From an uncultured Chlorobiota bacterium (GTDB taxonomy: Bacteria; Bacteroidota; Ignavibacteria; UBA10030; UBA6906), in NCBI GenBank assembly GCA_900696645.1, contig CAADGV010000012.1:62001-126000 (forward strand): DNA of 64,000 nucleotides. Reading direction: 5' to 3'. A model generated the notes under the pieces. That model was given only the letters and a program-made list of their open reading frames with translations, was not told where the DNA came from and searched no databases. The position numbers and the translations under genes were made by a program. Shown here piece by piece: positions 57,741 through 64,000 of the stretch (the first letter of the stretch is position 1; each line of letters opens with the position of its first letter).

Positions 57741-58376
57741 TTATTTCACAAGATTCAGCCCCTGCAGCGCCAGCGTATCTCCGGGACTGAGCATCAGCGC
57801 GTTGGTGAGAAGCATGCGCGCTTTCTGCCTGTCGCCTAAATAGTAATATGTCCATCCCAGTGAAAGGTTCGGCTCGTACTCAGCCGGATAATTACTCTGC
57901 GCCTTTTCAAGATGGCGCTTTGCCTCATCGTATTCGCCGTCGTTCAGAAGGATTTGTCCGAGGCGAAGATTGGCTGTAAAGTGCATCGGGTCGAGTTTCA
58001 GGATCGCCCGATACGTTGCCTGTACATTCTCCCAATCATTCAACGCCGAGAGCGGCAACGTGCGGCCGAGCAACGCTTCGATGCTCTTGTTGTTGGCAAT
58101 GGTGTTTGCCTGTGTATAGTACTTTTTCGACTCCTCGTAGTTCTTCGAAGAATAGGACAACCAGCCGAGACGAATGTTGATGAGATAGTCGTTCTTGTTC
58201 TCCTTATATACATCCAGCAAAGATTGAACGGCCTTTGGGTAGTTCCCTGCCATCTCGAATTTCAGCGATTGATGGAAGGCCTCAACCTTCCCGTTGTTTT
58301 GTGACAAGACTGTCCCAGCCAAAACCGCAATGATGATGGCGGCCAGCAACACGCTGAGTAGAGTGAAGTGTTTCAT
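57741..58376 (-). CDS. Exported TPR-repeat protein ending the PqqD/ATP-grasp operon
   Basis: A 211-residue protein: signal peptide residues 1-25 (LLAAIIIAVLAGTVLSQ), then about five TPR units (YPKAVQSLLDVYKENKNDYL; NYEESKKYYTQANTIANNKS; EYDEAKRHLEKAQSNYPAEY, in part). It starts with a 4-nt overlap with the urea-transporter fusion (58373-58376), so the two are coupled. A periplasmic scaffold for the M23 domain or the channel is a sensible guess. Confidence 0.8.
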   Translation of the reverse strand: MKHFTLLSVLLAAIIIAVLAGTVLSQNNGKVEAFHQSLKFEMAGNYPKAVQSLLDVYKENKNDYLINIRLGWLSYSSKNYEESKKYYTQANTIANNKSIEALLGRTLPLSALNDWENVQATYRAILKLDPMHFTANLRLGQILLNDGEYDEAKRHLEKAQSNYPAEYEPNLSLGWTYYYLGDRQKARMLLTNALMLSPGDTLALQGLNLVK

Positions 58377-60520
58377 TCTGATGTCTCCTCGTTTGTTATT
58401 CCCGTTGCAACAAATGCGCGATCCCCCGGTGCAGAGATCCTGATTTCCTTTATCATTCCTTCTGCATCGATTGTGAGAGTTCCGTCAAGCGTTTTCCGGT
58501 AGAACGCAAAAAGTCCCGTCCCTCTCAATTGAATACTGTTCGAGATTGTGTATTCACGACTTTCTTCCGATCGTTCCGCAAACCTGTATGATGCGCTGGC
58601 GTGCAGCTGCGGACTGAACACAAGCAAGAACTCGGAAAGATAACGTACAGCGCCGCCGACTGCCTTCGACACAGGATAGCGATCCGTCCAGACAAGGTTC
58701 GGCTCGTAGCACAGAGGTACCTGCACGGCCATCAGATAGAAATGATAGAGGGCCGAGCGTTTGTTTCCCGCAAAACCGGTCAGATAGAAAATCTTGCCAA
58801 CCATCGCGACGGATGCTGTCGCTCCGGCGGAGGATTCTATATACAGGCTGTTGAAGATATCCACCTTCACTTCCCACTCTTCGTTGAACGATTCACCATC
58901 AAATGAACAAGCAAACGAAAGCCTATCCCCCAACGTAAACTCGAACGCTCTCCTGATTATTTTGTGCGATTCGAGATTCCTCACAAGCATATTCTCTTCC
59001 GGATGATCGAATGTGTGCAGAACACATCCGCTTTCTGTTTTCTCTAAATAGTGGCCGATCGGATGTTCGAACGTTTTGTCTCCCAACTTGTCCGTCATCT
59101 GAAACTGGAAATGGAGATGTGGTGCCGGCGAACGTCCGCTGTTGCCGCACATCCCGACTGTGTCCCCCTTCTTCACCCGCTGCCCAACCACCAGCTTCGT
59201 TGCGTGCGGTTCAAGATGAGATACTGCCGAGAAGAGGTTGCTCCCGTGATCGATGATGACCGTGTTTCCCCAATTCGACTTCAGATTTACTGCGCCAACG
59301 TCGTTATTGGGAACACCATCAACAATCCGAACGACGGTACCTTCAAGAGGCGCTACCACGGGAAGTCTATTGCAGTAGTAATCGCTCAATGCCGCTCCGT
59401 CATTGGCATATTCCTTTCCTTCCTCATCCGTCACAACAAAATCCCACGCATGACGCCACTTGTCCTTGTGTGTGATGGAACCGTTATGCCCCTGCGACAC
59501 ACGCCACTCGCCGAAGAACGGCAACTCAGGAACAACGGCTTTGAACCGTTCAAAGCGCGACACGCGATTGTGATGGTAGTAGAAATTCTCCTCCGGTGTA
59601 CCGGGCTGGAAATAGAGGAGAACAAGATCGCTCTGTTCGCGCCGGAATTTCAGGCTGTATATTACCGACAGCACAACAAAGTTGAACGGGAGTACCAGCA
59701 CGGGTAATTGATAGCCGGACAGCACTTTGACGAAGAAACCCGTCAGTATCACAATAACGAGGGATGCAATGATAGAAAGAATGAACGATTTTGTCGACGG
59801 AATGATCAAATTTCCGCCGAGAGCAAACGCTGTGAGTATCGAATTGAATCCCGCAAAAATCAGAAACCACTCGCCCGCTTCCGGCATGATCAAGTCCACG
59901 AAGATCACGCTTGAGGCAAACCCGACAATGCTCAGCGTAAACATCACTCGCGACAGAAAGAGAAGGGCAACAGCAAAAACAATTCCCGATAACATGTCGG
60001 ATTGAAACACAATTAACCCAAGACTTCTGAAATATGTCTTGATTGTATCGGGTAGTGTGCCAAGAAATTCCGGTTCAGTAAACTCGAATGGCTTGCTTTC
60101 AATTCCGTTCAGATTGGTGAGAAAGATAATGAACACGTACAGCGTCAGCACAAACGGGAGACTCAACCCCGGCAGGTTGAACACGGCGGCAAGATGATGC
60201 TCAAGCACAGCCGAGACGAGAAATGTAATAATGATGAAGATGCCGATCAGGACGAGAAAGAACGGTGTCAGCTTGAAGTAGAATGCCGCGGCGGCACCGA
60301 AAAGAATGCCGTTGAATCCGTAAAAGCCGCTTCGGATCTTCGCCTCGTCAAATTTCAACACCGCCGCAGTCAGATTCGAAAGCACGACTCCCAACAGTGC
60401 AACAAGACCCAGCTCCGGCACAACAAACGTCGCCGCCAGCACTACCCCGCCGAACCATTTGCGGTTAGAGAAGAAAATCTGCGCGTAGCTATAGAGAATG
60501 GAGTCGAGAAGTAGATTCAT
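58373..60520 (-). CDS. Urea-transporter-like channel fused to an M23 peptidase domain
   Basis: A 715-residue fusion. Residues 1-~300 have about ten helices with the urea transporter signature (RSGFYGFNGILFGAAAAFYF; GLSLPFVLTLYVFIIF; DLIMPEAGEWFLIFAGFNSIL). Residues ~360-500 are a LytM/M23 zinc endopeptidase: HAWD (59441-59452), SHLEPHATKLVVGQRVKKGD and HLHF (59111-59119). The last 215 residues form an unrecognised beta-rich domain. M23 enzymes cut peptidoglycan cross-bridges; a urea transporter is a trimeric channel for urea or small amides. The start at ATG 60520 is 4 nt after the decarboxylase stop; a longer frame to 60577 overlaps that gene. Confidence 0.82.
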   Translation of the reverse strand: MNLLLDSILYSYAQIFFSNRKWFGGVVLAATFVVPELGLVALLGVVLSNLTAAVLKFDEAKIRSGFYGFNGILFGAAAAFYFKLTPFFLVLIGIFIIITFLVSAVLEHHLAAVFNLPGLSLPFVLTLYVFIIFLTNLNGIESKPFEFTEPEFLGTLPDTIKTYFRSLGLIVFQSDMLSGIVFAVALLFLSRVMFTLSIVGFASSVIFVDLIMPEAGEWFLIFAGFNSILTAFALGGNLIIPSTKSFILSIIASLVIVILTGFFVKVLSGYQLPVLVLPFNFVVLSVIYSLKFRREQSDLVLLYFQPGTPEENFYYHHNRVSRFERFKAVVPELPFFGEWRVSQGHNGSITHKDKWRHAWDFVVTDEEGKEYANDGAALSDYYCNRLPVVAPLEGTVVRIVDGVPNNDVGAVNLKSNWGNTVIIDHGSNLFSAVSHLEPHATKLVVGQRVKKGDTVGMCGNSGRSPAPHLHFQFQMTDKLGDKTFEHPIGHYLEKTESGCVLHTFDHPEENMLVRNLESHKIIRRAFEFTLGDRLSFACSFDGESFNEEWEVKVDIFNSLYIESSAGATASVAMVGKIFYLTGFAGNKRSALYHFYLMAVQVPLCYEPNLVWTDRYPVSKAVGGAVRYLSEFLLVFSPQLHASASYRFAERSEESREYTISNSIQLRGTGLFAFYRKTLDGTLTIDAEGMIKEIRISAPGDRAFVATGITNEETSE

Positions 60521-60524
60521 GATG

Positions 60525-61889
60525 TCAGCGGGATTTCTTCTCCTTGAGTCGGGCGGGCAGAACTTCCTGCTGCGCAAGATACTCCAGCGTTTCCGCTTTG
60601 CGAATCAACTCCACCGTGCCGTCTTCCATCACCATTACCACATTCGGTCGCATCGTGATGAACTGCATCCATTGCGTCATGTTGTATGCACCGACGTGGT
60701 TCAGTACGAGGCGGTCGCCCTGCTTGAGTGTCGGCAGAACAATCCCGTCGCGCAACACATCAATGTTCATGCACAACGGACCGTAGATGACGGCATCTTC
60801 TGTGTGTACGCTCGGCTGCTGCGCCGGTTGAACCTTGTGCTTGTACCAAAAGCTGGTGAACATCAGGTTCACACCCGCATCGACAATGATTGCTCTGCGT
60901 CCGGTTGAGAGTCGCTTGTTTGCAATAACAGTTGTAATGAGATACCCCGCGTTGTCAATGAGTGCCCTCCCGGTCTCAAGAATAAGCGTCGGCAGATCTT
61001 CCGGTTTAATGGAAAGCTGGAACAATCCGGAGGCAATTGCATCGGCATATTGCTCAAGACTCGGCACGACTTCTTCCGCAGGCAGGTATTGCCCGATTAG
61101 TGTATTCTGGGATGCAAACCCTCCGCCAACGTCAATGTAATCCAGCGTGATGCTGAATTCATCGTGCATGCTTTTCGCAAGGCCGGCAAGTTTGCTCGCG
61201 GCCACGCGGTATGCCTCGGCACTCATCATGTACGTGCCGATATGTGTGTGCAGCCCGATCAGCGATAGTCGCGGATTGGCGACAATGCGTTTGATGGCTT
61301 GCCACGCCTCGCCGTTCTCATAATTGAAACCGAACCGATCCCACAACGGATACACGCCGACATCCATGTTGACGCGGATGGCAACGCGGGCCTTCAGTGT
61401 TTCCGTATCCGTAAGCTCAACGATGTGATACAACTCGTCGAAGTGATCAATATGAATCATCGCACCTTCGCGTATTGCCGTACGGAGCGCCTCGATGCTC
61501 TTTTCCGGTCCGTTGAAGATGATATGTTCGCCCGGAATACCCAACGCCCGCGCCTTCCGGTATTCAAATTCGGACACAACCTCCGCCCACGAACCTTCCT
61601 GATGAAACACGGAACAAACGGCATCGAGGTAATTCGTTTTATACGACCAGGCGAATTGAACGCGGGGATACCGGTTTTTGAATACACGATAGGCATTCCG
61701 CTGATTCTGCCTGATGGTTTTCTCGGAAAGCACAAACAGAGGAGAGCCGAATTTCCCGGCGAGATCCTTGATCAGGACGCCGTCGATATTGTCGCGAACG
61801 GACGTTGACGGCCCGCTGCCGAATTTGTTCATGATGCCCGACTGATGTTTCGTCACAACGGGACGTTCGTATGTTTTCTTTTCTGCCAT
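60525..61889 (-). CDS. Divergent PLP-dependent decarboxylase (LysA/ODC fold) with a leader-like N-terminus
   Basis: A 454-residue alanine-racemase-fold decarboxylase. The PLP lysine is in FAWSYKTNY; THIGTY, DVGGGFAS, ETGRALIDNAG and GPLCMNID follow. Diaminopimelate and ornithine decarboxylases have CESxD or CDGLD at that point, so the substrate pocket differs, and the C-terminal block is GAYNMTQWMQFITMRP. The first 36 residues (61782-61889) have no counterpart in usual LysA, which starts near GVLIKDLAGKFGSPLFVLSE. This extension reads KKTYERPVV...HQSGIMNKFG, resembling the YxxP...G leader motif read by PqqD/RRE domains. It is 2 nt from the ATP-grasp gene. The substrate is unknown. Confidence 0.82.
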   Translation of the reverse strand: MAEKKTYERPVVTKHQSGIMNKFGSGPSTSVRDNIDGVLIKDLAGKFGSPLFVLSEKTIRQNQRNAYRVFKNRYPRVQFAWSYKTNYLDAVCSVFHQEGSWAEVVSEFEYRKARALGIPGEHIIFNGPEKSIEALRTAIREGAMIHIDHFDELYHIVELTDTETLKARVAIRVNMDVGVYPLWDRFGFNYENGEAWQAIKRIVANPRLSLIGLHTHIGTYMMSAEAYRVAASKLAGLAKSMHDEFSITLDYIDVGGGFASQNTLIGQYLPAEEVVPSLEQYADAIASGLFQLSIKPEDLPTLILETGRALIDNAGYLITTVIANKRLSTGRRAIIVDAGVNLMFTSFWYKHKVQPAQQPSVHTEDAVIYGPLCMNIDVLRDGIVLPTLKQGDRLVLNHVGAYNMTQWMQFITMRPNVVMVMEDGTVELIRKAETLEYLAQQEVLPARLKEKKSR

Positions 61890-61891
61890 GA

Positions 61892-62926
61892 CTATTTCTC
61901 TCCTGCAACCACAAGTTTTTCAAATTCTTTCATGTTGGTGATGTAATCCCACGAATAGCGGATGAAAATCGTACCGATCGTATATGTCTTGAACTGCGGC
62001 ACCTGCTCTCCGCGCGCAAGCTTCACAAGTGAATACGGGAGATTTTGCCCGGCACCGGTTGCCAGATGAACCCATGCCGGGAATCGGGGATTGATCTCCA
62101 ACAAAAAATACTCACCCGTCTCTTTGGATTTGATGAACTCCAACTCAAGTCCGCTTTGCCATTTCAACGCTTTGACAATGTCGGCGGCAAGACTGATCAG
62201 TGCTTTGTCATCCACTGTTACGCCGGCCCATCCTTTTCCTTTGTCTGTGATGTACAGCTTGCGCATCGGCACAGCGCCGATGGATGCCCCGCTGCCGTCG
62301 CCGAGCGCGACAACGTTGAATTCATCTCCCGTCACATGCTCTTGTATGATGATAGGAAGTCCCCATTTGAGCCGCAGTTTGTCGAATGCCGCGTGAACAT
62401 CGTTGAAGTTGTGGGCGATGTACGCGTCGTAAAAAATTCCCTTCACAACCACGGGGTAGTTGAACTGATTCGGGATTTTGTGAAGATCCTGCAGCGATGA
62501 CACAAGCGTGTTTTTCGGCACCTTGAAGCTATGCACTGTACAGAAATCGAACAGCTTGTCCTTGGCGCGCAAGTTCAGTTGGTCGAACGTCGGCAGAAAT
62601 GTGTGAATGCCGAGACTTCTCAGCCGCTCGCTCAGCTTGATGAATCCGTACAACTCTGAATCAAGCGTGGGAATGATGACATCTAACTTCTCCCTTGAGT
62701 GGATGTACGCAATCCGCTCAAACAACGGTTCCAATCCGCTCGACGGATAGGGAATGAGATAGCTTTTGTCGGCAATGTTCTCCATGTAGATGCCGGGGTC
62801 GAGCGAGTCGTACGACAACCCGATGATGCGTCCGGAAAACTCAGCTGCCGCACGCAGGCTCCGTATGACCGGCACGCCGGGTCCGGGATTGTCGGTGGCG
62901 TTCAGCCCTGTAACGGCGATGTTCAT
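61892..62926 (-). CDS. ATP-grasp ligase
   Basis: A 344-residue carboxylate-amine ligase-type ATP-grasp enzyme. N-terminal pre-ATP-grasp domain (IAVTGLNATDNPGPGVPVIRS), then NYPVVVKGIFYDAYIAH (ATP-binding lysine), IIIQEHVTGDEFNVVALGD, and LLEINPRFPAWVHLATGAG, the metal-binding end. It resembles the CarB/biotin carboxylase and PEP-amino-acid ligase side of the family. It would activate a carboxylate with ATP and join it to an amine. The start overlaps the PqqD-like gene by 4 nt, and the two are likely partners: PqqD presents a peptide. Confidence 0.85.
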   Translation of the reverse strand: MNIAVTGLNATDNPGPGVPVIRSLRAAAEFSGRIIGLSYDSLDPGIYMENIADKSYLIPYPSSGLEPLFERIAYIHSREKLDVIIPTLDSELYGFIKLSERLRSLGIHTFLPTFDQLNLRAKDKLFDFCTVHSFKVPKNTLVSSLQDLHKIPNQFNYPVVVKGIFYDAYIAHNFNDVHAAFDKLRLKWGLPIIIQEHVTGDEFNVVALGDGSGASIGAVPMRKLYITDKGKGWAGVTVDDKALISLAADIVKALKWQSGLELEFIKSKETGEYFLLEINPRFPAWVHLATGAGQNLPYSLVKLARGEQVPQFKTYTIGTIFIRYSWDYITNMKEFEKLVVAGEK

Positions 62927-63177
62927 TTTGTACGAATCAGTTTGAAGGATGAAAGTTGATTGATAAAGTCATCGAAGTCGCGGACAAACGTTGCCCGTTC
63001 AACATCATACAATTCAAGGATTTTCTGCTCAATGGCTTCACGAGTGTCGCCGCCCTGAAGCATCTTGAAAATGTCTTTGCCGATTTCATTCAGCGTGAAT
63101 GTCTCGCCCGTTGAAGCGAGGAAGAGAAATCCTGAATCGCTGACAGCGAGACTTTCAGGAACGAGATATGTGTTCAT
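62923..63177 (-). CDS. Stand-alone PqqD-like peptide-binding (RRE) protein
   Basis: An 84-residue PqqD-family winged-helix protein: VPESLAVSDSGFLFLASTGE, then FTLNEIGKDIFKMLQGG, DTREAIEQKILELYDVE, and FVRDFDDFINQLSSFKLI. PqqD-like domains (RiPP recognition elements) bind leader peptides and present them to modifying enzymes. It is the first gene of the operon with AAAGG 9 nt before its ATG. No radical SAM enzyme or obvious short precursor peptide is visible in the window, which sets this apart from PQQ and sactipeptide loci. Confidence 0.86.
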   Translation of the reverse strand: MNTYLVPESLAVSDSGFLFLASTGETFTLNEIGKDIFKMLQGGDTREAIEQKILELYDVERATFVRDFDDFINQLSSFKLIRTK

Positions 63178-63232: not shown

Positions 63233-64000
63233 ATGCTTACGTCAGTTCGCTTCTTTCTTTCCGCCGGGAATCGTGATCAGACAGCCGACCTTCTGAAGGG
63301 GCTTGCAGTCGTGTTCATGATTCTGGTTCATCTTGTCGAACTCTTTGCCGCACCGGCAATTTATGACAGTATTGCGGGCCGCGTTGCGTTGTTTCTCGGC
63401 GGACCGCCCGCCGCCCCTGTGTTTATGGCCGTAATGGGATACTTTCTTGCCTCATCACGAAAATCTTCGACTCAACATATTCGACGCGGAGTCTCCCTTT
63501 TTCTCGGCGGAATTGCGCTGAACATCGGACTGAATTTCAATCTTCTCCTCTCCATCCGTTCGGGCCGCTTTGATCTTGACCCGCTTCCGTACATCTTCGG
63601 TGCCGATATTTTGCCGCTCGCCGGATTGAGCGTGATGGCTTTTGCCCTTCTTCGACCCCTCTTCCGGCGATCATGGATTGCGTATCTCATTCCGGCCTTC
63701 GCCGTCGCCGCTGTAACTCCCCTACTTCACAACATGGAAACGTCCGATCCGTTTTTGAAGTACATTGTGCCGTTCTTGTGGGGACAATCAAGCTGGTCAT
63801 ACTTCCCGCTGTTTCCCTGGCTTGCGTACCCGTTGCTCGGATACGCGTACAGAATAGCGAGCGAAAGCCTCACACTACATTCACGAATGACGCCACCAAT
63901 CCGCTTACTGCTTCTTGTCTTGTGTACTTCCGGTCTCCTGATCTTTTCAGAGACTGCATATGCGATTTCGGTTGATCTGCCCCGCTACTATCATCACTCA
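63233..64000 (+). CDS. Membrane acyltransferase-like protein (DUF1624/HGSNAT type), partial
   Basis: A frame from ATG 63233 that stays open to the window end (256 codons, no stop). The product has about seven helices so far; it begins with RDQTADLLKGLAVVFMILVH (histidine in the first helix), which resembles the start of heparan-alpha-glucosaminide N-acetyltransferase and DUF1624 proteins. These move an acetyl or acyl group across a membrane. It diverges from the PqqD operon by 55 nt. The stretch TACCTTTG at 63185-63192 fits the Bacteroidetes -7 box TAnnTTTG and might be its promoter. It may belong to the same pathway. Confidence 0.66.
   Translation, partial: MLTSVRFFLSAGNRDQTADLLKGLAVVFMILVHLVELFAAPAIYDSIAGRVALFLGGPPAAPVFMAVMGYFLASSRKSSTQHIRRGVSLFLGGIALNIGLNFNLLLSIRSGRFDLDPLPYIFGADILPLAGLSVMAFALLRPLFRRSWIAYLIPAFAVAAVTPLLHNMETSDPFLKYIVPFLWGQSSWSYFPLFPWLAYPLLGYAYRIASESLTLHSRMTPPIRLLLLVLCTSGLLIFSETAYAISVDLPRYYHHS

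Follow-up and report, generated by a model that had tools for sequence, protein, structure and literature searches.

Among the genes of the window (the whole stretch of 64,000 nucleotides that was analysed), one encodes a PLP-dependent decarboxylase whose fold is preceded by a short N-terminal tail resembling the leader sequences of lasso peptide precursors, and the same operon encodes a stand-alone PqqD-like protein, of the type that reads such leaders. This raises the question of whether the tail of the enzyme is itself read by the PqqD-like protein and, if so, what purpose this would serve. The genes concerned are tightly packed on the minus strand, in the order PqqD, ATP-grasp, decarboxylase (third gene), UT-M23 fusion and TPR protein:

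62923..63177, minus strand: stand-alone PqqD-like RRE protein of 84 aa (Pfam PF05402, E=2e-12; PDB relatives TbiB1, TfuB1 and PbaB1)
61892..62926, minus strand: ATP-grasp ligase (Pfam ATPgrasp_Ter, E=2e-11), whose start overlaps the PqqD stop (ATGA)
61898..61904, minus strand: Shine-Dalgarno-like AGGAGAG, read directly, 8 nt 5' of the decarboxylase ATG
60525..61790, minus strand: LysA/FslC-type PLP decarboxylase domain (Pfam PF02784 and PF00278; NCBIfam FslC, 237 bits; best PDB match 7kh2)
58373..60520, minus strand: fusion of a membrane domain resembling urea transporters with an M23 peptidase domain (Pfam UT and Peptidase_M23), present in 107 of 111 loci
57741..58376, minus strand: TPR-repeat protein (Pfam TPR), the last conserved gene of the cluster, detected in 62 loci, for the most part those whose flanks are long enough

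The decarboxylase and its N-terminal tail

The decarboxylase reading frame (61889..60525, minus strand) opens with an ATG at 61889, and its translation starts MAEKKTYERPVVTKHQSGIMNKFGSGPSTSVRDNIDGVLIKD. Three features of the tail are considered below:

61782..61889, minus strand: residues 1-36 of the decarboxylase, the N-terminal tail (LysA fold from about residue 34)
61854..61871, minus strand: YERPVV, residues 7-12, putative RRE-binding motif [Y/F]xxPx[I/V/L]
61818..61826, minus strand: KFG, residues 22-24, a second invariant motif, 15 residues after Y7

The initial annotation had described 36 extra residues before the usual LysA start. The extension itself stands, being conserved and preceded by a Shine-Dalgarno-like sequence, and its length has to be revised to about 33 residues; homology to LysA/FslC begins at residues 27-34. 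An over-extended or mis-annotated start was ruled out by the AGGAGAG found 8 nt ahead of the ATG and by the conservation, which reaches the start.

The protein is not an ordinary LysA, taking into account that it scores below the NCBIfam LysA equivalog cut-off (233 against 298 bits), that it has GPxCM where LysA has GPxCE, and that another LysA-like gene exists elsewhere in the genome, whose product is 27% identical to it and has no tail. It also falls below the NCBIfam cut-off for FslC (237 against 500 bits). The closest solved structure, at about 30% identity, is that of an N-citrylornithine decarboxylase (7kh2), which has the same Cys-Met at the position of the LysA Cys-Glu. Since this replacement is accompanied by retention of the catalytic motifs (the PLP lysine K84, HxHIG, GGG and E-x-G-R), the decarboxylase is probably an active enzyme with a substrate other than diaminopimelate. 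Its relative BtrK decarboxylates a glutamate tethered to a carrier, BtrI-S-glutamate (PMC7857480). By analogy, relatives acting on N-acylated (FslC) or carrier-bound (BtrK) amino acids would suit an order in which a ligase acts before the decarboxylase.

Conservation of the tail and of the operon

It has to be noted that a loose version of the motif, [YFW]xxPx[LIVFA], occurs within the first 25 residues of 79 of 552 long ORFs (14%), so that its presence in a single sequence is little proof, and conservation across homologues is what carries weight. The family set was built from the 110 loci fetched first, which yielded 103 distinct (non-identical) decarboxylases for alignment, and 114 proteins were used for spacing; the scan of all prokaryotes comprised the best 80 of 579 hits, and the genome survey covered Bacteroidota and relatives. 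The residues [YF]7, P10, [IVL]12, K22 and G24 are each present in 103/103 distinct homologues, residue 7 being Y in 87 and F in 16. Position 9 is R, K or S in all of them, E8 is kept in 97 and G18 in 102, the latter being absent also from three members of a later batch. This conservation persists among homologues down to 47% identity, and the spacing is fixed in 114/114 proteins, with 15 residues from Y7 to K22, 26 from K22 to the GSP motif, and no indel up to the LysA fold. The family is, moreover, well delimited: its members score about 477 bits or more over their full length and all align from query residue 1-5, in contrast to other LysA-type matches, which score 142 bits or less, align from query residue 19-47 and are separated from the family by a clean gap.

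A PqqD reading frame is found in 107 of the 110 family loci; of the other three, two run into a contig end (L060, L071) and one is masked by an N run (L092). The decarboxylase and the ATP-grasp ligase co-occur in 33/33 cases, in an identical set of 33 of the 395 genomes of the phylum, and the LysA-type control loci (17/17) lack the tail, a nearby PqqD and a matching ATP-grasp. Natural fusions of PqqD to the decarboxylase or to the ATP-grasp ligase were sought among open-frame lengths and none was found, the long ATP-grasp frame of L092 being due to its N run.

These data bear on several earlier statements. That the same operon encodes a stand-alone PqqD-like protein is confirmed by the family loci, and the expectation that the extension would be conserved in homologues, and kept only beside a PqqD gene, agrees with the 103/103 key positions and with the 17/17 controls that have neither tail nor PqqD. 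The longer signature YERPVV...HQSG, by contrast, holds in part: Y7, P10 and G18 (102/103) are constrained, as is K22-x-G24, and H15, Q16 and S17 vary.

Some observations concern the other genes of the cluster and its surroundings. The UT-M23 fusion likely starts at the ATG at 60520, the listed ORF extending to 60577. In its M23 domain (fusion at 58373-60520), the first zinc His of the HxxxD motif is displaced in the alignment of 65 homologues (consensus THk..w..AwDF), SHL and HxH being kept; judging from these motifs, the peptidase domain may be inactive or unusual. Many Bacteroidota operons contain between the UT-M23 and TPR genes an extra gene of 390-450 aa with N-terminal TPR-like repeats (e.g., L097:11791-12954 and L065:11546-12895), which is missing in the window; its product has by eye the look of an outer-membrane barrel and gave no family match above the cut-off. 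One genome (G113) contains two decarboxylase/ATP-grasp copies with identical scores, located near both contig ends (C1:2568-4947 and C1:3733984-3736363), probably an uncut circular overlap rather than a duplication. Finally, a divergent multi-helix membrane protein, acyltransferase-like by eye, is encoded on the plus strand (63236-64000) and begins just upstream of pqqD.

The PqqD-like protein as probable reader of the tail

Discrete lasso RREs read the motif [Y/W]xxPx[L/V/I/F/A], of which both Y and P are indispensable in LppA (PMC13381572). The tail segment Y7-x-x-P10-x-V12 fits this motif, and so do 103/103 homologues when Phe is also accepted at its first position. On the side of the reader, the PqqD profile matches most strongly, within the PDB, lasso RREs whose structures include the leader, namely TbiB1 (5v1u/5v1v, 5e-13), TfuB1 (6jx3, 7e-9) and PbaB1 (9x90, 4e-5), the match to LppB (9x8z) being weaker (0.07). 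The published contact residues (PMC13381572), transferred through the PDB alignments of this profile, map in the PqqD of the window to F27, L29, N30, I32, I36, I53, Y57, V59, D67, F71, L75 and L80, the majority of which are conserved. Among 100 PqqD sequences, N30 is invariant, position 71 is F, Y or W in 98, position 75 is L in 98 and position 57 is Y or F in all, a conservation that is in part general to the PqqD family. The protein has both the family profile (PF05402, 5v1u) and the leader-pocket residues of an RRE.

The docking of the tail was predicted with AF2 using a stretch of one family locus (L109:3218-4663) in which the three genes naturally share one frame, translated with the stops as Gly, so that PqqD, ATP-grasp, a linker and the tail form one chain; this read-through is an artificial modelling device that makes no claim of cellular read-through, and the alignment had 81 rows, mostly unpaired. 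In the resulting model (mean pLDDT 84.6, pTM 0.71), the tail block 451-460 (I-R-Y-E-R-P-I-I-Q-K) reaches a pLDDT of about 95, its flanking blocks lying at 36-54. Strands are predicted at tail 458-460 and PqqD 22-26, and at tail 451-452 and PqqD 54-55, the latter as a two-residue bridge. After an alignment-based shift in numbering, these positions are the pairing places reported for LppA/LppB (PMC13381572), and it is from this strand pattern that PqqD, and not the ATP-grasp ligase, was deduced to be the contacted surface. When the window decarboxylase was modelled alone, as a monomer and with a 28-sequence alignment, residues 1-27 were all coil with a pLDDT <50. The KFG motif is docked in neither model. 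A Foldseek search with the joint model returned, among the matches listed, only ATP-grasp folds and is uninformative on the tail.

Tail residue 7 and PqqD residue 67 are matched in 110/110 loci with no exception, the pairs being Y-D (81), Y-N (6), F-Y (21) and F-S (2). By normalised mutual information over the first 100 loci, this pair has the highest score among 1,863 position pairs; after product correction it ranks second, the first being tail 21-PqqD 67. The residue of LppB equivalent to PqqD 67, D70, hydrogen-bonds the leader Tyr, and at the same position Gln79 of PbaB1 bonds the leader Trp (PMC13381572). Nevertheless, the 7/67 match supports, and does not prove, the pairing of tail and PqqD, and it was not taken as independent proof because a tree of the decarboxylase and ATP-grasp sequences contains only two changes at residue 7 and three at residue 67. 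Tail positions 20-21 (61827-61832) were also observed to be MN, PS or PD, covarying with a PqqD residue 67 that is D, Y or N, a pattern that may reflect shared descent or a second contact.

Taken together, the motif, its conservation, the co-occurrence of the genes, the pocket residues, the predicted docking and the 7/67 match give good support to the view that the tail resembles a leader and is read by PqqD as one, as its resemblance to YxxP leaders had led the initial annotation to propose. The contact with the PqqD beta sheet envisaged there is likewise consistent with the model, in which the motif forms a confident beta strand. We consider it very probable that the tail binds PqqD.

Search for a separate precursor peptide

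Searches with a tail HMM and for small ORFs found no precursor at another place in the operon, and a lasso or other RiPP cluster of that design was rejected as an explanation. Neither the genome nor 1.29 Mb of loci yielded a second copy of the tail, and no small ORF was conserved around 77 operon loci; a distant precursor, or one resembling neither the tail nor such ORFs, would have escaped these searches. The lasso B2 protease and the asparagine-synthetase-like C cyclase are absent among the conserved operon genes. Because neither another tail copy nor a conserved small ORF was found, the decarboxylase tail appears as the only evident ligand for the PqqD of the operon. A search among open PubMed Central papers found no literature on this operon or on decarboxylases as RRE clients.

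Possible functions of the tail

The explanation that we prefer, and regard as fairly likely as a whole, is that a built-in leader docks the decarboxylase on PqqD, most likely beside the ATP-grasp ligase; that the purpose of the binding is enzyme-enzyme docking is, on its own, close to an even call. We infer that, in the cell, tail residues 4-14 (K-x-x-Y-E-R-P-x-[IV]-x-K) would lie as a beta strand in the PqqD cleft, like lasso leaders in their RREs, and that PqqD would in turn contact the co-encoded ligase, this being the bridge step that places the decarboxylase next to it. The product of the ligase, an amide or a carrier-tethered amino acid, would then be handed to the decarboxylase, and K22-x-G24, whose spacing from the PqqD-binding segment is fixed, would contact the ligase or another partner. 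Against this explanation, PqqD binding by itself leaves KFG unexplained. Docking needs fewer assumptions than readings in which the decarboxylase is a client or, as in borosins, carries its own substrate, which retain some weight because Lys22-x-Gly24 is invariant.

In the client reading, which we consider unlikely, the decarboxylase undergoes a RiPP-like modification: with PqqD presenting the tail, the ATP-grasp ligase would attach an amino acid or other acid to it, most plausibly at Lys22, either activating the enzyme or providing a swinging arm for the substrate to be decarboxylated. The invariance of K22 and G24, which PqqD binding does not require, and the fixed distances on both sides of K22 would be accounted for in this way; besides, the consensus of LppA past its RRE-bound part is thought to serve modifying enzymes (PMC13381572), and the related BtrK acts on a carrier-tethered glutamate (PMC7857480). 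However, KFG is docked in neither AF2 model, no close relative of the ATP-grasp ligase was found that is known to modify such a Lys, and a second contact would explain the invariance equally well. The most elaborate form of the idea, in which PqqD feeds the tail to the ATP-grasp ligase, an amino acid is loaded on Lys22 and the enzyme's own decarboxylase domain acts on it, would amount to a carrier-protein pathway whose carrier is the enzyme's own leader, and seems to us quite improbable. The binding could also serve only folding or stability, PqqD being a chaperone or inhibitor of the decarboxylase and the ATP-grasp ligase having no role. The same co-occurrence and predicted binding would be expected in that case, although the strict co-occurrence of the ATP-grasp ligase and the overlap of its gene with that of PqqD point to a three-part unit and make such a role improbable. 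Still further down the scale, and highly improbable, is that the tail is a structural element of the decarboxylase itself, for example a lid over the active site where the two subunits of the dimer meet, and resembles lasso leaders by convergence or chance. The fixed length of the tail would fit this, and the decarboxylase was modelled only as a monomer of a fold that has its active sites at the dimer interface; nevertheless, residues 1-27 are disordered in that model, LysA-type relatives have no tail, the YERP segment becomes ordered once PqqD is present, and the 7/67 match would be left aside.

Significance

RREs serve as markers of RiPP gene clusters, and here an RRE conserved in many Bacteroidota seems to be paired with an enzyme rather than with a precursor peptide, which suggests that the tag-and-reader pair of ribosomal peptide antibiotics also docks enzymes. 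If the docking explanation is true, a stand-alone PqqD would no longer be a sure sign of a peptide product, RRE-leader pairs would be used in nature to dock metabolic enzymes to one another, and the many PqqD proteins that lack a precursor may have partners that can be identified through N-terminal YxxP tails. The tail offers, in addition, a testable entry to a widespread uncharacterised operon composed of PqqD, ATP-grasp, decarboxylase, UT-M23 and TPR genes.

Comparison with known systems

The lasso RRE-leader pairs (TbiB1, 5v1v; TfuB1, 6jx3; PbaB1, 9x90) share with this operon a stand-alone PqqD-fold protein of similar length, a YxxPx[hydrophobic] ligand and the pocket positions, and the strand pattern predicted for the tail and PqqD agrees with their pairing. 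They differ in that their leader heads a short precursor, whereas here it heads an enzyme of 420 residues in an operon with no protease or cyclase among its conserved genes and no precursor gene found; the first place of the motif is Y or W in lasso RRE ligands and Y or F in the tail. The LPP RiPPs (LppA/LppB, 9x8z) are alike in their YxxPxV motif, in LppB D70, which corresponds to D67 of the window PqqD, and in an extra conserved part of the leader past the RRE contact, although LppA is a precursor cleaved by signal peptidase and the tail described here leads into a decarboxylase. The N-citrylornithine decarboxylase FslC/FigC and BtrK have the same PLP fold as the decarboxylase, and FslC shares the Cys-Met after GPx, but no homologous tail was aligned in them and identity is about 30%. 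In borosin methyltransferases (e.g., OphMA), recognition peptide and enzyme form one chain, the C-terminal peptide is the substrate core, and there is no separate reader of the PqqD type. The tailed decarboxylase resembles them in joining peptide and enzyme in a single chain, with the difference that its tail is N-terminal and shows no evident core, and that a separate protein is the putative reader.
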